Part shown: one piece after another, positions 12,157 to 21,763 of the stretch
Layout of the letters: every line of letters begins with the position of its first letter
Position numbering within the stretch: the first letter of the stretch is position 1
From: Methyloversatilis sp. RAC08
GTDB taxonomy: Bacteria > Pseudomonadota > Gammaproteobacteria > Burkholderiales > Rhodocyclaceae
Length of the DNA stretch: 64,000 nucleotides
Assembly (NCBI RefSeq): GCF_001713355.1
Contig: NZ_CP016448.1
Location: 3,782,001-3,846,000, forward strand
Direction of reading: 5' to 3'
Position numbers and translations under genes: made by a program
The notes under the pieces: model-generated
The model's input: only the letters and a program-made list of their open reading frames with translations
Told to the model about the DNA's origin: nothing
Databases searched by the model: none

Positions 12157-14961
12157 ATGAATGCACCCATTGATGCTTCGGTGATCGCGCAATCGATCGA
12201 ATTCACGCTGGACGGCCAGTCGATGACGGCCCGTGTCGGCGAAACCATCCTGCAGGCGGCGGCCCGCCAGGGTGTGGACATCCCCCACCTCTGCTACAAG
12301 GACGGCTACCGTCCGGACGGGAACTGCCGCGCCTGCGTGGTCGAGATCGACGGCGAACGCGTACTCGCGCCGAGCTGCTGTCGCGCACCGACGCCCGGCA
12401 TGAACGTCAAGGCCGAATCGGAGCGCGCCGTGAAGGCGCAGAAGATGGTGGTCGAACTGCTGCTGTCGGACATGCCGGAGCAGACCTACAAGCCCGATTC
12501 CGAACTGGCCCATTGGGCGGAAAAGCTCGGCGTGACAGGGTCGCGCTTCGAAGGCCGCGAGCAGCCGGCATGCGACCAGTCGCATCCGGCGATGAGTGTG
12601 AACCTCGACGCCTGCATCCAGTGCAACCGCTGCGTGCGCGCCTGTCGCGAAGAGCAGGGCAATGACGTGATCGGCTATGCCTTCCGCGGTTCGGCGTCGA
12701 AGATCGTGTTCGACCAGGACGACCCGATGGGTGCGTCGACCTGCGTGGCCTGCGGCGAATGCGTGCAGGCCTGCCCGACCGGCGCGCTGATGCCGGCCGG
12801 CGGTGTCGGCATGGTGAAGATGGACAAGACCGTCGACTCGGTCTGCCCGTACTGCGGTGTGGGTTGCCAGCTGACGTATCACGTCAAGGACGACCGCGTA
12901 CTGATGGTGACCGGCCGTGACGGTCCGGCCAACGAAGAGCGCCTGTGCGTGAAGGGCCGCTTCGGCTTCGACTACGCGCGTCATCCGCAACGCCTCACGA
13001 AGCCACTGATCCGTCGTGCCGATGCACCGAAGCACAAGAATTTCGTCGTCGATCCGGGCAATCCGCTGTCGGCGTTCCGCGAAGCGAGCTGGGAAGAGGC
13101 GATCGAGTACGCAACGAGCCGGCTGCGCAGCATCCGCGACACCAAGGGACCGAATGCGCTGGCCGGTTTCGGTTCGGCCAAGGGCTCGAACGAAGAGGCC
13201 TATCTGTTCCAGAAGCTGATCCGCACCGGCTTCGGCACCAACAACGTCGATCACTGCACGCGCCTGTGCCATGCCTCGTCGGTCGCTGCGCTGCTCGAAG
13301 CGGTTGGCTCGGGCGCGGTGTCGAATCCGGTGCGCGATGTGCTGCACTCCGACGTGATCTTCCTGATCGGCGCCAATCCGCTGGTCAATCACCCGGTCGG
13401 CGCGACCTGGATCAAGAACGCGGTCAAGCAGGGCGCGCGCCTCATCGTGTGCGATCCGCGCCGCAACGACCTGCAGCGCTACGCCACGCATTTCCTGCAG
13501 TTCAAGCCGGACACCGACGTGGCCATGCTCAACGCGATGATGCACGTCATCATCGAAGAAGGTCTGGTCGACGAGGCCTTCGTGCGCGACCGCACCTCGG
13601 GTTTCGATGCGCTGAAGAAGAACGTGGCCGATTTCAGTCCGGAACGCATGGCCAAGATCTGCGGCATTCCGGCCGAAACGCTGCGCGAGGTGGCGCGCAT
13701 GTTCGCGACCTCAAAGGCGTCGATGATCCTCTGGGGCATGGGCGTGTCACAGCACGTGCATGGCACCGACAATGCGCGCTGCCTGATTTCGCTGGTCATG
13801 ATGACCGGCCAGATCGGTCGCCGCGGCACCGGCCTGCATCCGCTGCGCGGCCAGAACAACGTGCAGGGTGCGTCCGACGCCGGCCTCATCCCGATGGTGT
13901 TCCCGGACTACCAGGCGGTCGGCAACAAGACCATCCGCGACAAGTTCGAAGAACTGTGGGGCAGCCGTCTCGACGCCAACCCGGGTCTGACCGTGGTTGA
14001 AATCATGGATGCCATCCATGCCGGCAAGCTCAATGGCTGCTACATCATGGGTGAAAATCCGGCCATGTCCGACCCGGACGTCGAGCACGCGCGCGATGCG
14101 CTGGCGAAGCTCGACTGCCTGGTGGTGCAGGACATCTTCCTGACCGAAACGGCCTACTTCGCCGACGTCGTACTGCCGGCGTCGGCCTTCCCTGAGAAGA
14201 CCGGCACCTTCACCAATACCGACCGCCAGGTGCAACTGGGTCGTCAGGCGATCAATCCGCCGGGTGACGCGCGGCAGGACCTGTGGATCATCCAGCAGAT
14301 GGCCAATGGCATGGGGCTGGACTGGCGCTACGATGGCGCGAAGGACGTGTTCAACGAAATGCGCAAGGCGATGCACTCGATCGCCGGCATCACATGGGAA
14401 CGGCTGGAAGCCGAGCACTCTGTCACCTACCCGTGCGAGAACGAGGGCGATCCGGGCGACGAGGTGGTGTTCATCGAAAGCTTCCCGACCCAGTCGGGCC
14501 GCGCCAAGCTGGTGCCGGCCAAGCTGATTTCGGCCAACGAGAAGCCGGACGCCGACTATCCGATGGTGCTGATCACCGGCCGTCAGCTCGAGCACTGGCA
14601 CACGGGTTCGATGACACGCCGGGCTTCGGTACTCGACAACATCGAGCCGATCGCGACCGTCACGATCAACCCGGCCGACATGGCGAAGCTGAAACTGCGG
14701 CCGGGCGAGGTGGTGACGGTCGAATCGCGCCGCGGCAAGATCGCGCTGTACGCGCGCGTCGATGGCAATGTGCCGGTCGGTGCCGTGTTCATCCCGTTCG
14801 CGTATTACGAAGCCGCCGCCAACATGTTGACCAATCCGGCGCTGGACCCGTTCGGCAAGATTCCGGAGTTCAAGTACTGTGCGGTGCGCCTGAAGAAGGG
14901 CGGGACACCGACCCAACTGACGACCTACGGCGGCGGTCAGGCGAAGATGGTAACTGCCTGA
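12157..14961 (+). CDS. NAD-dependent formate dehydrogenase, catalytic alpha subunit
   Basis: A 934-aa Mo/W-bis-PGD enzyme that oxidises formate to CO2. Domains in order: NuoG-like [2Fe-2S] region (CYKDGYRPDGNCRAC), His/Cys-type cluster region, two [4Fe-4S] ferredoxin motifs CIQCNRCVRAC (near 153) and CVACGECVQAC (near 196), then the molybdopterin oxidoreductase with CPYCGVGC near residue 230. The active-site position in DHCTRLCHASS is a cysteine codon (Cys371), not UGA, so this is a Cys enzyme. The C-terminal molydopterin-binding domain is present (GRQLEHWHTGSMTRR). Layout matches FDH1, which in Methylorubrum uses tungsten; the metal cannot be read here. Ends at a strong terminator. Confidence 0.93.
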   Translation: MNAPIDASVIAQSIEFTLDGQSMTARVGETILQAAARQGVDIPHLCYKDGYRPDGNCRACVVEIDGERVLAPSCCRAPTPGMNVKAESERAVKAQKMVVELLLSDMPEQTYKPDSELAHWAEKLGVTGSRFEGREQPACDQSHPAMSVNLDACIQCNRCVRACREEQGNDVIGYAFRGSASKIVFDQDDPMGASTCVACGECVQACPTGALMPAGGVGMVKMDKTVDSVCPYCGVGCQLTYHVKDDRVLMVTGRDGPANEERLCVKGRFGFDYARHPQRLTKPLIRRADAPKHKNFVVDPGNPLSAFREASWEEAIEYATSRLRSIRDTKGPNALAGFGSAKGSNEEAYLFQKLIRTGFGTNNVDHCTRLCHASSVAALLEAVGSGAVSNPVRDVLHSDVIFLIGANPLVNHPVGATWIKNAVKQGARLIVCDPRRNDLQRYATHFLQFKPDTDVAMLNAMMHVIIEEGLVDEAFVRDRTSGFDALKKNVADFSPERMAKICGIPAETLREVARMFATSKASMILWGMGVSQHVHGTDNARCLISLVMMTGQIGRRGTGLHPLRGQNNVQGASDAGLIPMVFPDYQAVGNKTIRDKFEELWGSRLDANPGLTVVEIMDAIHAGKLNGCYIMGENPAMSDPDVEHARDALAKLDCLVVQDIFLTETAYFADVVLPASAFPEKTGTFTNTDRQVQLGRQAINPPGDARQDLWIIQQMANGMGLDWRYDGAKDVFNEMRKAMHSIAGITWERLEAEHSVTYPCENEGDPGDEVVFIESFPTQSGRAKLVPAKLISANEKPDADYPMVLITGRQLEHWHTGSMTRRASVLDNIEPIATVTINPADMAKLKLRPGEVVTVESRRGKIALYARVDGNVPVGAVFIPFAYYEAAANMLTNPALDPFGKIPEFKYCAVRLKKGGTPTQLTTYGGGQAKMVTA

Positions 14962-14978
14962 TCCGTTGCGCATTCATG

Positions 14979-15010
14979 AAAAACCGGGGCCGAGTGCCCC
15001 GGTTTTTTTT
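14979..15010 (+). terminator. Rho-independent terminator after formate dehydrogenase genes
   Basis: An 11-bp stem AAAACCGGGGC/GCCCCGGTTTT with loop CGAGT, followed by an eight-T run, 18 bp after the alpha-subunit stop. It insulates the operon from the cobalamin riboswitch that starts about 50 bp further on. Confidence 0.95.
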
Positions 15011-15059
15011 GCCCCTGCACCGGGTATTGTCATTGACGGCAGGTGAGGCGGACGGCTAC

Positions 15060-15262
15060 CCTGCGCGTGCTTCAGGTGCCCTGACCAGCGTTCGCTGCGA
15101 GGGGTGAAACGGGAAGTCCGGTGAGTGCCTGCAACCAGGTCGCGATCCCGGCGCTGCCCCCGCAACGGTAAGCGAGTCGTAGCGATTCAATCAGCCACTG
15201 TGCGCCACGCATGGGAAGGCGAATCGCACATTTCCCTCGCGAGCCCGGAGACCGGCCTGACG
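15060..15262 (+). ncRNA. Cobalamin (AdoCbl/B12) riboswitch
   Basis: The conserved core of the cobalamin riboswitch is readable in order: AGGTGCCCTG (15074), GGGTGAAACGGGAAGTCCGG (about 15102-15121), CGCTGCCCCCGCAACGGTAA with AAGCGA, then CCACTG, CACGCATGGGAAGGCG, and the 3' B12 box GAGCCCGGAGACCGGCCTG (15241-15259). It lies 150 bp upstream of the first surface-protein gene and on the same strand as the TonB receptor. The stretch between the aptamer and the ATG contains a GCCGGC...GCCGGC hairpin next to the AAGGAGG ribosome site, so control by hiding the ribosome site is likely. B12 binding should repress the downstream genes. Confidence 0.95.
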
Positions 15263-15415
15263 CATTTGACCGATGGCTGCGGTGGGCGGCGGAGGTGCGT
15301 ATTTCCTTTGCCGGTCGCTTTTCCGCGCAGGTCGTGCGTCGCTTCCCGTTTGCTTCAGATCATCGGATTTCCGCAATTCGCCGGCGGGTGCTGCCGGCGC
15401 TGCAAGGAGGTCTGC

Positions 15416-16213
15416 ATGCGTACCATTCTTCTAACATCCCTCATCGGACTGGCGTTTGCCGGTTCCGCCCACGCCGGCCCGTTCGCGCCGGCCGCCGGTC
15501 AGCCCGGCTCGACGGCCATCAGCAAGGACAGTCCTGCTTTCGTCCAGTGGGCGACCGGCCATCTCGACTACCTGCCGGGTCCCAATGTCGACGCCACATG
15601 GCAGACGCCGGAAAAGGGTCTGGGCGTGGCCCAGGGCGGCGCGACCGACATCGTCGTTCTCGGCGACGGCGGACGCATCACGCTCACCTTTGACGGCTAC
15701 ATCACGAACGGTGCCGGCGCCGATTTCGCGGTGTTCGAAAACGGCTTCATGGACACCTTCCTGGAACTGGCCTTCGTCGAAGTGTCGTCCAACGGGACCG
15801 ATTTCTTCCGCTTCCCGAACTTCTCCTTCACCGCCAGCCCGGTCGGTGGCTTCGGCCTGATCGATCCGACCAATATCGACGGTCTGGCTGGCAAGTACCG
15901 CGCCGGCTTCGGCACCCCCTTTGATCTCGAGGTGCTGAGCGGCGTCGCCGGGCTGGATGTTAACAAGGTGCAGTACGTGCGCCTGATCGACGTCGTCGGC
16001 AATGGCTCGACCTTCGACAGCTTCCCGGCCGAATTCGGCGGCCCGCACCCCATCTACGACCCGTACCCGACCACCGGCAGCAGCGGCTTCGACCTCGACG
16101 CGGTCGGCGTCATCCACTACGCGGCACTGCCCGCCGTGCCCGAGCCGTCGCAATGGGCGATGTACTGCGCCGCACTGGGCCTGCTCGGTCTGGTCGCCCG
16201 CCGTCGCGGCTGA
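15416..16213 (+). CDS. B12-riboswitch-controlled PEP-CTERM surface protein
   Basis: A 265-aa protein with a signal peptide (MRTILLTSLIGLAFAGSAHA), a beta-rich body, and a PEP-CTERM signal (AVPEPSQWAMYCAALGLLGL then ARRRG). Perfect AAGGAGG ribosome site 6 bp ahead of the ATG. Key stretches are DGGRITLTFDGYI, GADFAVFENGF, LELAFVEVSSNGTDF. I know this body from 'cell surface protein' genes that sit beside B12 TonB receptors in Bacteroidota as well as Proteobacteria, so a role in catching corrinoids at the cell surface is a reasonable inference. It is the first gene behind the riboswitch; the DUF4465 gene follows at 33 bp. Confidence 0.85.
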   Translation: MRTILLTSLIGLAFAGSAHAGPFAPAAGQPGSTAISKDSPAFVQWATGHLDYLPGPNVDATWQTPEKGLGVAQGGATDIVVLGDGGRITLTFDGYITNGAGADFAVFENGFMDTFLELAFVEVSSNGTDFFRFPNFSFTASPVGGFGLIDPTNIDGLAGKYRAGFGTPFDLEVLSGVAGLDVNKVQYVRLIDVVGNGSTFDSFPAEFGGPHPIYDPYPTTGSSGFDLDAVGVIHYAALPAVPEPSQWAMYCAALGLLGLVARRRG

Positions 16214-16246
16214 GGCCGCCCCCGCTCACCACGAAAGATCAATGAC

Positions 16247-17047
16247 ATGAACAAGACACTCATCACCCTTGCCCTGGCTGCACTGGCAGCCAGCCATGCC
16301 GCGCACGCAGCGACCCCTTCGGTTGCCACGTTCGAAGACGCGCCGCTGGCATCCGAAAGCCACTTCTTCCCGCAAGTCACGACCACCTTCACCAGCGGAG
16401 CCGCCACCTTCAACCACACCTACTCGGACTTCGGTGGCGGCTGCTGCCATGTCGACTGGGTGTATTCGAACCGCACCGACACGACGACCGGCAACTTCAC
16501 CAATCAGCACAGCGCGATCACCGGCGGCGGCGTCGACGGATCGGCCCATTACGCGATCGCCAATTTCGGTGCGCCGACGATCAGCTTTGCGTCGGCCGTC
16601 AGCGTGCAGGGTGCTTACTTCACCAACACCACGTTCACCGGTCGCACCATGCTCGACGGCGACACCCTGTTCGGCTTTTCGAAGAAGTTCGGCGGCGCCA
16701 GCGGCGATGACCCCGACTACCTGAAGCTGACCATCATCGGCAGGGACAGTGGCGGTACGACGACCGGCAGCGTCGACTTCATGCTGGCCGACTACCGGTT
16801 CGCCGATAACACGCAGGACTACGTGGTGACCGACTGGCGCTGGGTCGATCTCGCGGCGCTCGGCACGGTCAGCAGTCTGCAGTTCGCGCTGGCGTCGAGC
16901 GACAGCGGTGAATTCGGCATCAACACGCCGGCCTATTTCGCGCTCGACAATCTGACCGTCACCGCAGTACCGGAACCGGAACAGGCGGCGCTGCTGCTGG
17001 CCGGTCTGGCGTTGGTCGGCGCGATCGCGCGTCGCCGTCGCGGCTGA
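16247..17047 (+). CDS. DUF4465 PEP-CTERM protein, likely corrinoid-binding
   Basis: A 266-aa secreted protein: signal peptide ending AAHAA, DUF4465 beta-sandwich body, then PEP-CTERM anchor (VPEPEQAALLLAGLALVGA plus RRRRG). DUF4465 features are clear: YSNRTDTTTGNFTNQHSA, GAYFTNTTFT, GFSKKFGGASGDDPDYLKL, DFMLADYRFADN, and SSDSGEFGINTPAYFALDN. In Bacteroidota, DUF4465 proteins are encoded in B12-riboswitch loci with surface corrinoid-binding lipoproteins; here the lipid anchor is replaced by an exosortase signal. Gene order riboswitch - surface protein - DUF4465 - TonB receptor makes co-regulation likely. Corrinoid binding is inference, not shown by sequence. Confidence 0.85.
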   Translation: MNKTLITLALAALAASHAAHAATPSVATFEDAPLASESHFFPQVTTTFTSGAATFNHTYSDFGGGCCHVDWVYSNRTDTTTGNFTNQHSAITGGGVDGSAHYAIANFGAPTISFASAVSVQGAYFTNTTFTGRTMLDGDTLFGFSKKFGGASGDDPDYLKLTIIGRDSGGTTTGSVDFMLADYRFADNTQDYVVTDWRWVDLAALGTVSSLQFALASSDSGEFGINTPAYFALDNLTVTAVPEPEQAALLLAGLALVGAIARRRRG

Positions 17048-17059
17048 TCGACCCGGAGT

Positions 17060-17089
17060 CACCCGCACGCCCTCTGCGGTGTGCGGGTG
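17060..17089 (+). other. Hairpin in the short gap before the TonB receptor gene
   Basis: ACCCGCAC...GTGCGGGT forms an 8-bp stem with a roughly 14-nt loop, 11 bp before the receptor ATG. There is no T run after it, so it is not a standard terminator; it may tune expression of the receptor relative to the two surface proteins, or protect the processed 3' end of the upstream message. Confidence 0.5.
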
Positions 17090-17099
17090 ATGCGCATTG

Positions 17100-19178
17100 A
17101 TGCATCGCTTCCGCCTTTTGCTGTTGCTTACCGTGTCGCCCGGCCTGGCCCTCGCACAGGCTTCGGCGTCGCGCGTGCACGAGCTCGATGAAGTCGTGAT
17201 CAGCGCGCCGTCGGCAGCCGACACGCTGCGTGTGGTGCCGCACAGTGTGTCGGTCATCACGACCGAAGACATCGAGCGTTCGCCGTCGCGCAGCGTGGCC
17301 GAAGTGCTGGGTCGCGAAGCGAACCTCAACATCCAGAGCTATTTCGGCCGCGACAAGGGCGCCACCGTCGACATGCGCGGCTTCGGGGCCACGGCAGTCA
17401 GCAATGTGCTGGTGCTGGTCGATGGCGTCAGGCTGAACGCGTCGGATCTGTCCGGCGCAGACCTGTCGTCGGTTGCGCTTTCCCAGGTCGAACGCATCGA
17501 AGTGCTGCGTGGCGGCGGCGCCGTGCGCTACGGTGACGGCGCGGTCGGCGGCATCATCCATGTGCTGACAAGGCGTCCGCGGAGCGGGCCGCTGAAAGGC
17601 GAATTCGAGGCGCGCACCGCTTCATACGACACGCAGGAACTGCGCTTCAGCGCGTCCGGCGGCGCGGGGCCCCTGTCCGGCCGCATCGATGTCGGGCGGC
17701 TCGACGGCAACGGCTACCGGGACAACGACGAACAGCGCCGACGCGATACCGCGGCCGAACTGCGCATCACGCCTGACGGCGCGTTGTCCTTCATGGACGT
17801 GCTGCTGCGCGTGTCGCGTCACACCGACGAATACAAGCTGCCGGGTCCGGTGTCGCGCGAACGCTTCCTGTCCGGCAGTGCTGCGCTGCGTCGTTCGAGC
17901 ACGGCGTCACCGCTTGACGGCGGCAGTACGGACGACCGCAAGTTCGGCACGCTGTGGCGCTTCGATCTGGGCGATTTCGGTCTGGTCGAATTCCAGACCG
18001 ACCACCGTACGCGCGACAATCCGTATCTGATCGGCGTCAATCCGGCACAGCCGCTGAGCGATCAGCAATACACGATCGAATCGACGCGGCGCGACGTGCA
18101 GTTGCGCTACGACCTCGACTACAGCGCATTCGGCCGCATCCATTCCTTCGGTGCCGGCTTTGTCACGCAATCGTCCGACTATCTGCGGCGCGACGTCGGC
18201 CGCACCGTGATCGACCAGTCAAGGCTGCGTACCGGCGACCTCAATGGTCAGGCCTGGTATGCGGAGACGGTGTTCCGCGCGACCGATGCGCTGCGCTTGA
18301 ACGCCGGCTGGCGCAGCGACGACACGAAAAGCCGCACCGAAGCAGCCACCTACCGGCGCACCTGCCAGTTCCAGAACGTGTTCATTCCGGGACTGGGCTT
18401 CATTCCGGTGGAAATTCCGGGCAGTTGCGTCACCGGCTTCGAATCTGACAGCCGCTACGCGTCGAGCACGAAAAGCCATGCTGCGGAGCTGGGGGTGAGC
18501 TGGCAGCCGGTGAAGGCGCTGGTCGCCTTTGCCAGCGTGTCGCGCAACTTCCGCACCCCGAACATCGACGAACTGGCGCTGGCGTCGTCCGATCTGCGCG
18601 CGCAGCGCGGTCGCACGATAGAAGCCGGTGTGCGTCTGCAGCCTGACGACCGTCTTTCGCTCGGGCTTACGCTGTTCCGCCTGCGCAATCAGGATGAAAT
18701 CTACTTCGACAGCACCGGCGTGCCGAGCGTGAACCGCAACTACGACCTGCCGACCCAGCGCACCGGCGTCGAGCTGGAAACGCGCTGGCAGCCGTCCGCC
18801 GCCTGGCTGTTCGCTGCCAATGCCGGCTACGTGCAGCCGCGTTTCAAGGGCAGCGATGCCGACATTCCGCTGGTGCCGCGCTGGACCGCGAATGCGCGTG
18901 CGGAGTGGCTGCAGACGCCTTCGCTGCGCTGGATCGCTGCGGCGCGCCATGCCGGGCGACGCTTCGACGGCAATGACCTCGACAATCGCAGCTTCGCCGA
19001 ACTGCCGTCCTACACGGTGTTCGATCTTGCGCTGCGCCTCGATCTGGGCGGCGGTGCGCAACTGGCGGCCGGCATCAACAATGTGTTCGACAAGGTGTAT
19101 TCGACCATCGCCTTTTCGGAAACCTATTACCCGATGCCCGAGCGCAATGGCTACGCCAGCCTGCGCTGGCGCTTTTAG
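17100..19178 (+). CDS. btuB: TonB-dependent outer-membrane receptor, probable B12 receptor (BtuB-like)
   Basis: A 692-aa outer-membrane barrel with signal peptide (LLLLLTVSPGLALAQ), a TonB box (DEVVIS near residue 31), a plug domain (VSVITTEDIERSPSRSVAEV, LVLVDGVRLNASDLSG, IEVLRGGGAVRYGDGAVGGI) and a 22-strand-type barrel ending in aromatic Phe (SLRWRF). The start is the ATG at 17100; a TTG just before it would add one residue. Specificity is assigned from context: it is the third gene behind a cobalamin riboswitch, and its length and plug fit BtuB-type receptors. Periplasmic btuF and inner-membrane btuCD are not in the window. Confidence 0.85.
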   Translation: MHRFRLLLLLTVSPGLALAQASASRVHELDEVVISAPSAADTLRVVPHSVSVITTEDIERSPSRSVAEVLGREANLNIQSYFGRDKGATVDMRGFGATAVSNVLVLVDGVRLNASDLSGADLSSVALSQVERIEVLRGGGAVRYGDGAVGGIIHVLTRRPRSGPLKGEFEARTASYDTQELRFSASGGAGPLSGRIDVGRLDGNGYRDNDEQRRRDTAAELRITPDGALSFMDVLLRVSRHTDEYKLPGPVSRERFLSGSAALRRSSTASPLDGGSTDDRKFGTLWRFDLGDFGLVEFQTDHRTRDNPYLIGVNPAQPLSDQQYTIESTRRDVQLRYDLDYSAFGRIHSFGAGFVTQSSDYLRRDVGRTVIDQSRLRTGDLNGQAWYAETVFRATDALRLNAGWRSDDTKSRTEAATYRRTCQFQNVFIPGLGFIPVEIPGSCVTGFESDSRYASSTKSHAAELGVSWQPVKALVAFASVSRNFRTPNIDELALASSDLRAQRGRTIEAGVRLQPDDRLSLGLTLFRLRNQDEIYFDSTGVPSVNRNYDLPTQRTGVELETRWQPSAAWLFAANAGYVQPRFKGSDADIPLVPRWTANARAEWLQTPSLRWIAAARHAGRRFDGNDLDNRSFAELPSYTVFDLALRLDLGGGAQLAAGINNVFDKVYSTIAFSETYYPMPERNGYASLRWRF

Positions 19179-19179
19179 C

Positions 19180-20160
19180 TCAGTTCCGGTGCAGCGCCCG
19201 CGTGCTGCGCTGCGCGAAATAGAACCACTCGTTGCCCGGTGTCGAGGTCGGGTTCGGAAACACGATGTAGCCGTCCTGCGGCGCAATGACCGGCGTGCCA
19301 TCATGGCGGGTGCCGATCGCGTCGCCGGCGCTGACCGGGTCGAAGCTGCACCAGGCGCGCGCAAATTCATCGTCCGGATGCAAGCGGTCCACCACCTCGG
19401 TCAGACGCAGCAGTTCGAAGCTGTCGCGCGCCGCAGGCGCGGGTGCTTCGACCAGCCTCAGGTGGGCCAGCGTGTTGCGGATGGCGCGCCAGGCGAATTC
19501 GGGCGCAGCCGGATCGTCGTGCTGGCCGCATTCCAGCGTCACTGCATAGCCGCCCATGCGGCGCATGTATTCGGTGGTGCCGATGCCGTAGTCCGGATCG
19601 GTCGACAACAGGTGGGCACGCTCGGTCGGCGCGGTGCGGGCGAGTCGCTTGCGCACGCCGGTCGCGTAGGTGTCGAGCCAGCCCTCGACCAGACGTCGCG
19701 CACCGAGGCGCAGCGCCAGCGCCTCTTCGGCGGCCGCGTGCGAAAAGGCCTCTAGCGTGCCGTCGTTGTCCTGCGGCCCCAGCATCGCGAACGGTTCGCC
19801 GCCGGTGTGGAAGGAATGCAGGTCGAGCAGCACGTCATGCGCGGCGAGCAGCGGACACAGCACGTTGGCGATGCGGTCTTCGTAGTCCTGCGGCTCGGCA
19901 ACCGGACGCAGGTTGCGGTTCAGATTGCGGTCGCCGGCGCGCCGCTTCAGCGTCCAGGCGAGCGGATTGGTGATCGGCACGAAGGTGACGGTGCCGCGCA
20001 CGATGACGAGGTCGCCCCGCGCCAGCTCGTCGAGCACGCGCTCGATGCCGCGCGTGCCGCCGATTTCGTTGCCATGGACCGCGCCGAGCACGATCAAGCG
20101 CGGCCCGGCTTCGAGGCCATGGAAGGTGTGTGAGGCGAGACTGTGCGTGGAAGGATTCAT
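19180..20160 (-). CDS. Succinylglutamate desuccinylase/aspartoacylase family deacylase (M14)
   Basis: A 326-aa zinc amidohydrolase of the AstE/AspA type. The zinc site is visible as HGNEIGG near residue 30 (His and Glu ligands) and DLHSF further on (His ligand), with RNLNRN as the substrate-carboxylate motif. The ATG at 20160 starts directly before the conserved core; a longer upstream reading frame lacks family character. It follows the SelO gene by 16 bp on the same strand, and ends 2 bp from the convergent TonB receptor stop. There is no ast operon around it, so the substrate is open; it should not be called arginine catabolic AstE. Confidence 0.8.
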   Translation of the reverse strand: MNPSTHSLASHTFHGLEAGPRLIVLGAVHGNEIGGTRGIERVLDELARGDLVIVRGTVTFVPITNPLAWTLKRRAGDRNLNRNLRPVAEPQDYEDRIANVLCPLLAAHDVLLDLHSFHTGGEPFAMLGPQDNDGTLEAFSHAAAEEALALRLGARRLVEGWLDTYATGVRKRLARTAPTERAHLLSTDPDYGIGTTEYMRRMGGYAVTLECGQHDDPAAPEFAWRAIRNTLAHLRLVEAPAPAARDSFELLRLTEVVDRLHPDDEFARAWCSFDPVSAGDAIGTRHDGTPVIAPQDGYIVFPNPTSTPGNEWFYFAQRSTRALHRN

Positions 20161-20176
20161 CGATGCGGAATGCGGT

Positions 20177-21763
20177 TCATGAACTGCAGGACAGGGCGGA
20201 ACAGCCGGGCTTGTTGCGCGCCCATTCGGGGCGGCGGCCGGCCAGATCATCGAATTCGGGTTGTTCGTCGTACGGCCGCTGCATCATCTTCAGCAGCCGC
20301 TCGATCATCGTGGTGTCGCCGGCAGTGGCATCGTCGATGGCGCGCTGCGCCAGCCAGTTGCGCACGATGTATTTCGGGTTGGTCGCATTCATGCGCGCGA
20401 TGCGCGCCGCATCGGCCTCGCCGCCGGCCGTGATGCGCTGCGCCCAGCCCTGCAGCCATCCGAGCACGGCGCGGCCATGGTCGGCGGACGGGCCGTCACC
20501 GCTGTAGAAGGCTGCGTTCAACGGCGCCAGTGCCGCCGCATCGCCCGCGAGGGCTTTGGCCACCGGCACCTCGGCCAGTGCGCGGAAAAAGATCGTGAAG
20601 TCGCATTCTTCCGCCTGCAGCAGCTGGAACAGTTCGCTGCGCATGGCCTGTTCCGCCTCGTCGGCCGATGCGGGAAGGCCGAGCTTGTCGGCCAGCATCT
20701 GCGTCCAGCGTTCGGAAAAGGTCTGTTCGTAGCCCTCAAGTGCGGCATCGACCGCGGCCTGATCGTCGATCAGCGGCGACAGCGCAGCCGCGAGCCGTGA
20801 CAGGTTCCAGTAGCCGATCTGCGGCTGGCGGCCGTAGCAGTAGCGCCGGCCCTGGGCGTCGGTGGTATTCGGCGTCCACATCATGTCGACGCCTTCGAGC
20901 CAGCCGTAGGGGCCGTAGTCGATCGTCAGGCCGAGGATGGACATGTTGTCGGTGTTCATGACGCCATGCACGAAGCCGACGCGCATCCACTCGACCATCA
21001 GCACCGCGGTACGGCGGCAGATTTCCGCGAACCACTCCGCCGGCGACGCGATGCCCGGGAAGTGGTGTGTCATCACCCAGTCTGCGAGCTTGCGCTGCAG
21101 GTCGAGCTCCTCGTGCGACGCGAGGATTTCGAAGTGGCCGAAGCGCACGAAGCTTGGGGCGACGCGGCACACGATGGCGCCAGGTTCGTATTCGGGGTGT
21201 CCGTCGTAGAACATGTCGCGCACCACCCGGTCGCCGGTCGCGACCAGGCTGAGCGCGCGCGTGGTCGGAATGTCGAGGTGGAACATGGCTTCGCTGCACA
21301 GGAATTCGCGCACCGACGAACGCAGCACGGCGCGGCCATCGGCACGCCGCGAGTAGGGTGTCGGGCCGGCGCCCTTGAGCTGCAGTTCCTGGCGTTGCCC
21401 TGCCGTATCGATCATTTCGCCCAGCGTGATGGCGCGGCCGTCGCCGAGCTGGCCAGCCCAGTTGCCGAACTGGTGTCCGCCGTAACGCGCCGCGTAGGGC
21501 TGCATGCCGGGCAGGATGCGATTGCCGGCCAGCGCCTCGACCGCCGCGTCGACGCGCCCCGGGCGGCGCAGTCCGAGCTGGTCGCCCAGCACGTCCGACC
21601 AGGCCAGCAGTTCGGGCGCGGCGACCGGCGTCGGCGAGGTCAGCGTGTAGGACGCATCGATGACCGGGCGCGAGCGCATGTCGGCGGAAGGATCAGCGGG
21701 CAGGCTGCGCACGAACAGATTGTCGAACTCGATTTCATCGAGCCGTCGGGCGGCAATGGACAT
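20177..21763 (-). CDS. selO: Protein adenylyltransferase SelO (YdiU family)
   Basis: A 528-aa pseudokinase that AMPylates proteins. Family blocks are intact: YGGHQFGNWAGQLGDGRAI, KGAGPTPYSRRADGRAVLRS, REFLCSEAM, HGVMNTDNMSILGLTIDYGP, and the C-terminal NPKYIVRN and CSALSCSS. In some SelO proteins the penultimate region carries selenocysteine; here both positions are cysteine codons. ATG at 21763 is well placed just before the conserved N-terminal FDNLFVRSLPAD. Known role: redox-linked protein AMPylation. The deacylase gene follows in the same direction at 16 bp. Confidence 0.95.
   Translation of the reverse strand: MSIAARRLDEIEFDNLFVRSLPADPSADMRSRPVIDASYTLTSPTPVAAPELLAWSDVLGDQLGLRRPGRVDAAVEALAGNRILPGMQPYAARYGGHQFGNWAGQLGDGRAITLGEMIDTAGQRQELQLKGAGPTPYSRRADGRAVLRSSVREFLCSEAMFHLDIPTTRALSLVATGDRVVRDMFYDGHPEYEPGAIVCRVAPSFVRFGHFEILASHEELDLQRKLADWVMTHHFPGIASPAEWFAEICRRTAVLMVEWMRVGFVHGVMNTDNMSILGLTIDYGPYGWLEGVDMMWTPNTTDAQGRRYCYGRQPQIGYWNLSRLAAALSPLIDDQAAVDAALEGYEQTFSERWTQMLADKLGLPASADEAEQAMRSELFQLLQAEECDFTIFFRALAEVPVAKALAGDAAALAPLNAAFYSGDGPSADHGRAVLGWLQGWAQRITAGGEADAARIARMNATNPKYIVRNWLAQRAIDDATAGDTTMIERLLKMMQRPYDEQPEFDDLAGRRPEWARNKPGCSALSCSS

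Follow-up and report, generated by a model that had tools for sequence, protein, structure and literature searches.

Introduction

The closest described counterparts of the locus reported here are the vitamin B12 (cobalamin) uptake systems of Escherichia coli and of gut Bacteroides. In the E. coli BtuB/BtuFCD system, the gene of the TonB-dependent B12 receptor, btuB, stands under a cobalamin riboswitch. BtuG and BtuH, two components of the Bacteroides system, are given as absent from E. coli in PMC8941943. In Bacteroides, BtuG forms a lid on BtuB, and BtuH has been suggested as a possible loader (PMC10404256). Homologues of BtuG were confined to Bacteroidetes in the search that PMC6143338 describes, and homologues of BtuH were found in approximately two thirds of the gut Bacteroidetes and in three Firmicutes among a panel of 313 gut species (PMC8941943). 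A further family, BtuJ/DUF4465 (IPR027828, PF14717), comprises proteins with nanomolar to picomolar affinities for B12 (PMC12751083); binding has been shown for eight divergent members and was judged a common function of most (PMC13398666). Nearly all the work on surface B12 capture that we found stems from gut Bacteroides and concerns lipoproteins. Here we analyse a stretch of 64,000 nucleotides from Methyloversatilis sp. RAC08 (contig NZ_CP016448.1, positions 3,782,001 to 3,846,000; hereafter the window), in which a cobalamin riboswitch is followed by the genes of two exported proteins, P0001 and P0002, and of a TonB-dependent receptor, P0003. This locus is very probably a B12-repressed operon for the capture and uptake of cobamides.

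The Bacteroides arrangement btuJ-btuH-btuL-btuG-btuB-btuFCD is exemplified by a B. finegoldii record (L057), which codes for a DUF4465 protein, a 593-residue BtuH2 (PDB 7biz, E 0), a BtuL-like lipoprotein, a BtuG-like DUF5074 protein, a TonB receptor and an ABC transporter. It shares with the Methyloversatilis locus a riboswitch, a DUF4465 protein, a BtuH-type domain and a TonB receptor in one operon; unlike it, the Methyloversatilis operon is devoid of the BtuG propeller, BtuL and BtuFCD and carries exosortase-type tails instead of lipid anchors. As for the pedal-bin lid of Bacteroides BtuBG, none of P0001, P0002 and P0003 has a DUF5074 match, the rest of the genome not having been searched for this domain.

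Results

The riboswitch aptamer (RF00174) lies at positions 15057 to 15274 of the forward strand and is complete, all 189 model positions (1-189) being covered with a score of 110.4 bits (gathering score: 31.5 bits). It is the sole match above a gathering score in the window and the sole RF00174 match in the whole genome (3.94 Mb, one contig, 99.96% complete); RF00174 was also detected in the E. coli control. Three genes follow on the same strand: P0001 (15416 to 16213, 265 residues), an exported protein with a PEP-CTERM tail; P0002 (16247 to 17047, 266 residues), a DUF4465 protein of the BtuJ family with a PEP-CTERM tail; and P0003 (17100 to 19178, with an alternative TTG start at 17097), the TonB-dependent receptor. 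The intergenic gaps are 33 nt between P0001 and P0002 and 52 nt between P0002 and P0003. Upstream, the preceding reading frame on the same strand stops at 14961, and downstream the frame at 19180-20250 lies on the opposite strand. The first-pass annotation, made from the DNA letters and translated reading frames, had described a complete cobalamin riboswitch followed on one strand by two PEP-CTERM proteins and a TonB receptor, and the profile scores bear out this description.

The tails of P0001 (residues 240-264; 16133 to 16207, forward strand) and P0002 (residues 240-265; 16964 to 17041, forward strand) score 24.8 and 26.0 bits, respectively, against PF07589 (cut-off 20.7). With TIGR02595, the PEP-CTERM model of NCBIfam, P0002 exceeds the cut-off of 16 (19.5) and P0001 narrowly misses it (14.5). 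Both tails have the PEP motif, a hydrophobic stretch and arginines, as in known PEP-CTERM/exosortase sorting, and signal peptides were recognised by eye in both proteins. The genome encodes two exosortases (PF09721) and has 78 PEP-CTERM matches, so that the sorting signals should be usable.

Evidence for a function in B12 capture is strongest for P0002. The protein matches DUF4465 (PF14717) with an E-value of 3.6e-49 and 167.9 bits (cut-off 25), it is the single DUF4465 protein of the genome, and its solved relatives are D5EK51 (PDB 9hmu, 5e-24), BtuJ1 (9fct, 4.7e-23) and BtuJ2 (9i2l, 1.5e-8). The putative B12-binding HI loop, G-I-N-T-P-A-Y-F (residues 224-231; 16916 to 16939, forward strand), contains the motif described for the family (PMC13398666, PMC12751083) in intact form (N226, T227, P228, A229, Y230), and its tyrosine is present in 20/20 rows of our DUF4465 alignment (A2). 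Since DUF4465 relatives bind B12 experimentally and the HI-loop motif matches, B12 capture by P0002 is highly likely. P0002 thus resembles BtuJ1 and BtuJ2 in its domain, in the NTPAY motif of the HI loop and in the setting of a TonB-receptor operon under a cobalamin riboswitch, but it has a PEP-CTERM tail where these have a lipoprotein signal. DUF4465 was also compared with BtuH, and this candidate relation was rejected (hhalign 0.1%).

P0001 has no Pfam domain above cut-off other than PEP-CTERM, and a scan of 21 family members gave no significant core domain. Across the 20 other rows of the family alignment (A1), identity to P0001 ranges from 44 to 98%; the closest relatives are five Methyloversatilis records (95-98%), and five non-pseudomonadotal members have 44-62%. 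The motifs KYRxGxGTPFDL and YDPYPTxGSxGFDLDAxG, both in the C-terminal half, are conserved in the family. PEP-CTERM tails occur in 15/21 members and Por_Secre_tail in 2/21; the tail of the member in locus L021 has no Pfam family at 0.01. Two AlphaFold models (pLDDT 84 and 88, pTM 0.79 and 0.89) show a beta-sandwich. Among the Foldseek matches listed for them (50 of 910 and 919), discoidin, F5/8-C and CBM32 domains predominate; every one has E >0.001, and the CBM32 of AlyQ is included (TM by target 0.66 and 0.63). The B12-binding domain of BtuH2 has been described as having low structural similarity to anything known, with a modest one to AlyQ (PMC8941943). The P0001 profile found no relative in the PDB (one chance match at E 1), and P0001 had no match in phages, plasmids or viral contigs. 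Several candidates were rejected: a second DUF4465 domain (the hhalign match was mainly the shared PEP-CTERM tail and fell to 0.3% after removal of the tails), BtuL (hhalign 0.1%), TgMIC1 (weak matches in 11/21 members, best 0.019, leading nowhere) and the lipoprotein model LIC_13355 (4.2e-4, 19.6 bits versus a cut-off of 120, likewise leading nowhere).

The core of P0001 aligns with the B12-binding domain of BtuH. The BtuH profile (A3) consists of nine aligned domains from nine of ten records of plasmid and phage collections (H5 was omitted as identical to H4, and one of three H7 places was used). Against this profile, P0001 gave an hhalign probability of 90.6-91.9%, an E-value of approximately 1e-6 and a score of 50.7 over 63 columns. 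None of 200 column shuffles scored above 28.1; the reversed profile reached 17.0, and the comparison of P0001 with DUF4465 gave 15.9. The aligned core comprises residues 63-126 (15602 to 15793, forward strand) and has the pattern VxLGxxGxIxLxFDxxIxNxxGxDFxVxxNxF. An N-terminal stretch around PAxGQ, taken alone, scored 18.5 (shuffle maximum 17.9).

In BtuH2, N399 contacts the B12 phosphate, Q333 the ribose and F401 the lower base (PMC8941943). N109 of P0001 (codon 15740-15742) aligns with N399 and is an asparagine in 23/23 P0001 rows and 9/9 BtuH rows; in six of six outgroup proteins E-N is replaced by E-[A/V/S/I], one of them having an asparagine one place later. Q29 aligns with Q333 and is a glutamine in 12/23 rows, the surrounding PAxG motif being present in all 23, and F111 aligns with F401 and is a phenylalanine in 21/23 rows. 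The weak P0001 matches that we found elsewhere (G124, G415, G683 and G695) belong to a wider family of discoidin-like surface proteins, and no riboswitch was found near proteins of this family in the stretches of approximately 3 kb examined. These data suggest that P0001 and BtuH share a putative ligand site apart from the wider discoidin-like family. P0001 is a remote relative of BtuH at the superfamily level, which is short of proof for sister families. It differs from the BtuH domain (BtuH2, 7biz; BtuGH, 8blw) in being shorter, in having no PKD/Ig-like repeats and in its own C-terminal motifs and PEP-CTERM tail. The most P0001-like arrangement among the BtuH loci seen is that of Persicobacter plasmid pPP3 (L061:7959-8780), where a riboswitch is followed by a stand-alone BtuH domain of 273 residues, a TonB receptor and a DUF5074 gene. 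The wider discoidin-like surface family (L069, L070, L071, L072 and L031) shares the P0001 core, often with a YVSNDG-like motif.

P0003 has the TonB-dependent barrel (PF00593, 7.2e-40) and plug (PF07715, 7.7e-26) domains, and its plug region resembles BtuB (PDB 3m8b, 6e-18). In the genome scan it is, narrowly, the best match to TIGR01779, the BtuB equivalog model (109.8 bits versus 102.1 for the next protein). We assign it a role in B12 uptake because of the riboswitch and its neighbours, and regard it as a probable functional analogue of BtuB rather than a BtuB equivalog.

The conservation of the locus was evaluated in 20 P0001 loci collected by a pattern scan of genome contigs from 84,980 species, which catches close relatives and is not a census. 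These loci are not independent, as seven (L006-L012) are from Methyloversatilis and two (L023 and L024) are near-copies. In 19/20 loci RF00174 precedes P0001 on its own strand, the match in L021 being cut by the contig and just above threshold; the twentieth locus, L024, starts inside its DUF4465 gene. DUF4465 is present in 18/20, L020 ending 295 bases past P0001, and a TonB receptor in 16/20 (15 by similarity to P0003 and L023 by the plug). In L024 the same receptor gene is seen by eye in two frames, and the stretches of L021, L022 and L025 contain none. The succession riboswitch, P0001, DUF4465, receptor occurs in 14/20 loci (L006-L019), half of these 14 being the Methyloversatilis loci.

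The pair of P0001 and DUF4465 occurs in riboswitch loci of Pseudomonadota, Bacteroidota (L023) and Planctomycetota (L022, L025). The riboswitch of the Fluviicola locus (L023) is followed by DUF4465, the receptor, DUF5074 of the BtuG type and, last, P0001, and the two P0001 relatives there have tails of the type IX secretion system (T9SS). In Rhodopirellula maiorica (L025:4125-10172), a P0001 domain is fused with three DUF4465 domains and a dockerin in one protein of 2015 residues. These findings contradict the earlier proposal of a separate, proteobacterial design: P0002 belongs to the BtuJ1/J2 family, P0001 is a remote BtuH relative, and the pair extends to two other phyla. It is the anchoring or sorting signal that differs between lineages, not the list of parts.

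To these loci we add two genome samples, one of the class and one of the phylum, which were drawn regardless of the locus and both include the window's own genome. Among the 369 genomes of the class sample, DUF4465 is present in four and a strong P0001 match in five, namely the same four and G200, where P0001 is next to a TonB receptor at the end of a contig; G124 has a weak match of the wider family. The hypergeometric probability of this overlap is approximately 7e-9, or 5e-7 without the window's genome, with relatedness left uncorrected. Among the 398 genomes of the phylum sample, some of which are also in the class sample, two have DUF4465 and the same two, the window's genome and G709, have strong P0001 matches; three others have weak ones. 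The P0001-DUF4465 pair is therefore rare (4/369 and 2/398). Apart from the window's genome, the two samples contain four species with DUF4465. P0001 directly precedes DUF4465 in 4/4, and three of them have a riboswitch and a TonB receptor; in the fourth (G091) the contig breaks off 299 bases before the P0001 frame, and no receptor was found within 8 kb.

Some loci of this set show peculiarities. The R. maiorica protein lies approximately 1.2 kb behind its cobalamin riboswitch and might form a multi-site B12 sponge. In two Aquabacterium loci (L016:5899-7488 and L019:5500-7290), P0001 and DUF4465 share a single reading frame uninterrupted by a stop codon, in the middle of which lie the first PEP-CTERM and another, second signal-like stretch; this may be a polyprotein or an assembly artefact. 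At the place of the Fluviicola DUF5074 gene, L020 has a lipoprotein-like gene of 415 residues (L020:4594-5841), flanked by the TonB receptor and P0001. Its identification as BtuG was not supported (BLASTP E 0.006, not significant; the only Pfam match is Reg_prop at 0.0082). L078 has a gap of approximately 1.3 kb at the corresponding position.

The leader between the riboswitch and gene 1 is 141 nt long. Folding predicts a hairpin (15361 to 15418, forward strand) in which the Shine-Dalgarno sequence AAGGAGG of gene 1 pairs with an upstream UUUCC, a candidate translational expression platform. The fold of the window's leader has a z-score of -2.2 and was equalled in 4 of 200 shuffles. A hairpin over the Shine-Dalgarno sequence is predicted in all seven Methyloversatilis leaders folded (of eight; L007 was left out), two of which have changes on both arms. 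Of eight more distant leaders, those of L015, L016 and L018 pair the Shine-Dalgarno sequence similarly, as judged by eye, while the other five lack such pairing or are unclear. A scan of positions 14900-17200 gave no intrinsic terminator between the riboswitch and gene 1; the lone terminator-like site reported there precedes the riboswitch, with 1.4 such sites expected by chance. The predicted hairpin and the negative terminator scan favour translational control of gene 1.

CbiC, the one marker gene of B12 synthesis examined, has no match in the genome, and four matches to the B12-binding domain PF02310 lie over the cut-off. On these grounds, the cell probably uses B12, would not synthesise it de novo and may depend on this locus. 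Elsewhere in the genome, BtuC-, ATPase- and BtuF-like genes stand in a row (G000:C1:1930919-1933595; L076:4920-7596). All three score below the equivalog cut-offs (BtuF-like 187 bits versus 234, BtuC-like 231 versus 334).

Discussion

The proposed operon would act as follows. The riboswitch would permit expression at low B12; binding of B12 would lead to the hairpin that hides the ribosome site of gene 1. P0001 and P0002 would be exported by their signal peptides and, judging from motif and genome content, sorted by exosortase via the PEP-CTERM tails to the cell surface or the polysaccharide layer. There, the DUF4465/BtuJ jelly-roll of P0002 would bind the cobamide with its loops, as its family membership strongly suggests. 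The beta-sandwich of P0001, a member of the BtuH superfamily, would most likely bind the nucleotide loop of the cobamide via N109 or dock the carrier on the receptor; this step is less firmly indicated. The vitamin might then be handed to P0003 and imported, perhaps by the unlinked BtuFCD-like genes. Our data support the earlier suggestion that the operon is B12-regulated, serves capture and uptake and codes for proteins with exosortase-type tails, most strongly for P0002 with its proven B12-binding relatives.

A number of observations weigh against this interpretation. Surface anchoring, regulation by B12 and transfer to the receptor are predictions from sequence. Locus L021 has P0001 and no DUF4465 in the stretch examined. 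In P0002, the tyrosine of the BtuJ helix (DE-helix; Tyr146 of BtuJ1) is replaced by Phe130, the position having been located via a BtuJ2 orthologue; phenylalanine is found there in 4/20 rows of the DUF4465 alignment and tyrosine in 16/20. P0002 nevertheless stays in DUF4465/BtuJ because the HI-loop tyrosine is the residue named as the hallmark of the family (PMC12751083). P0003 scores 142.4 bits against the BtuB equivalog model TIGR01779, far below the cut-off of 599.7 and lower than its 185.5 bits against TIGR01783 (siderophore receptors), whose cut-off of 223.5 is not reached either. The earlier designation of P0003 as a BtuB-type receptor is fair, but unproven. The relation of P0001 to BtuH is likewise weakened by several results. 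BtuH2 taken as a single sequence matches P0001 only weakly (22.8%, E 9e-4), and forcing a global alignment yields 16%. The C-terminal halves score 13.9 with shuffles reaching up to 18.8, although the register appears sensible by eye, and it is in this half that the corrin contacts of BtuH2 (Y510, W511, W577 and H476) lie. Foldseek gave no match with E <=0.001, and the 50 matches listed of 910 and 919 do not include BtuH2 (7biz). Finally, P0001 scores higher against the discoidin-like family (83.5) than against BtuH, a value biased by the collection of these proteins with the P0001 profile itself; the discoidin-like family scores 37.0 against BtuH.

Several of these points bear on an explanation in which P0001 is no cobamide binder, but a structural partner similar to carbohydrate-binding modules (CBM) or discoidin that fastens the DUF4465 carrier either to exopolysaccharide or to P0003, so that only P0002 holds the vitamin. 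It would account for the listed Foldseek matches being mostly carbohydrate-binding modules and discoidin domains, for the nearer profile neighbours of P0001 being generic surface proteins, and for the corrin-facing BtuH residues that cannot be aligned with P0001. There is also a precedent in Bacteroides, where no B12 binding was detected for BtuL and BtuK2 of such operons, according to PMC12751083. It fits less well with the invariant N109, which matches the phosphate contact of BtuH and is missing at that position from the outgroup, or with the PAxG motif kept at the Q333 site throughout the family, even if the glutamine itself is not; and the identity of the five non-pseudomonadotal members to P0001 is high for a mere spacer. 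We regard this explanation as the less probable one, though a serious contender; it is a variant of the capture operon that concerns the role of P0001, and the probabilities of the two overlap. For B12 binding by P0001 itself, the evidence leaves the scales about level.

Alternatively, P0001 and P0002 might not be fixed surface traps but leave the cell, free or on vesicles, to carry B12 outside it and come back to the receptor, a role proposed for BtuJ on Bacteroides vesicles. BtuJ1 and BtuJ2 carry B12 on Bacteroides vesicles (PMC12751083), and PEP-CTERM proteins have been linked to exopolysaccharide (PMC12530212, citing Haft 2006). Released carriers are nonetheless less likely than not in our estimation. 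PEP-CTERM tails are generally interpreted as anchors. A chance neighbourhood, in which a riboswitch and a receptor flank two of the genome's many PEP-CTERM proteins by accident, might be imagined given the number of PEP-CTERM matches in the genome. The comparisons refute it, since the gene order is conserved in most loci; in addition, P0002 has a domain of a B12-binding family, P0001 and DUF4465 co-occur in both genome samples, and the two are fused in Rhodopirellula.

Within the preferred interpretation of a cobamide capture operon, P0001 may be the founder of an unnamed cobamide-binding family, a proposition for which we see an even chance. In almost all loci seen, its compact BtuH-superfamily domain would form a surface B12 trap with two sites together with BtuJ-type DUF4465; a Desulfatibacillum record has P0001 alone. 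The pair would be conserved from Pseudomonadota to Planctomycetota and Bacteroidota and anchored by the lineage's own sorting signal (exosortase, T9SS or dockerin).

The IPR013424 entry is, we presume, that of PEP-CTERM. C-terminal extracellular sorting motifs have been counted in 38% of 824 DUF4465 members, 229 with IPR026444 and 88 with IPR013424 (PMC12751083). An exosortase-type tail on a DUF4465 protein is hence already on record, as a statistic, and the earlier remark that such a design is not usually described holds in part: in the open-licence PMC literature, subscription papers and preprints being outside this scope, we found no report on P0001 or on an exosortase-anchored B12 operon, nor a description of PEP-CTERM/exosortase sorting being used for vitamin capture. 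The paper that combines PEP-CTERM, cobalamin and riboswitch (PMC12530212) concerns c-di-GMP riboswitches before PEP-CTERM genes, and, judging from titles and abstract openings, none of the papers listed on Methyloversatilis and vitamin B12 (20 of 22) points to this locus. What is new is the P0001 family with its BtuJ pairing and its relation to BtuH, together with the predicted hairpin over the ribosome site.

The locus is predicted to put the same binding-domain families as in Bacteroides on the surface of Methyloversatilis via exosortase, in a genome with no CbiC match. To our knowledge, the individual roles of PEP-CTERM proteins are mostly unknown; the locus gives such proteins a concrete, testable job and draws attention to a small conserved family, P0001, with a testable ligand.

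A few minor observations concern neighbouring sequences and related records. The window contains a further PEP-CTERM signal at 1028-1099 (G000:C1:3783028-3783099). In L015, a second cobalamin riboswitch lies on the minus strand (L015:11-216), approximately 5.5 kb from that of the operon and on the opposite strand to it. BtuH domains or B12 loci are carried by records labelled as B. finegoldii 'plasmid 18' and 'plasmid 34' (L057, L067) and as 'Bacteriophage sp.' from faeces (L062-L066). L057 also contains the housekeeping genes trpS and carB, and these plasmid and phage records may be pieces of bacterial chromosomes.

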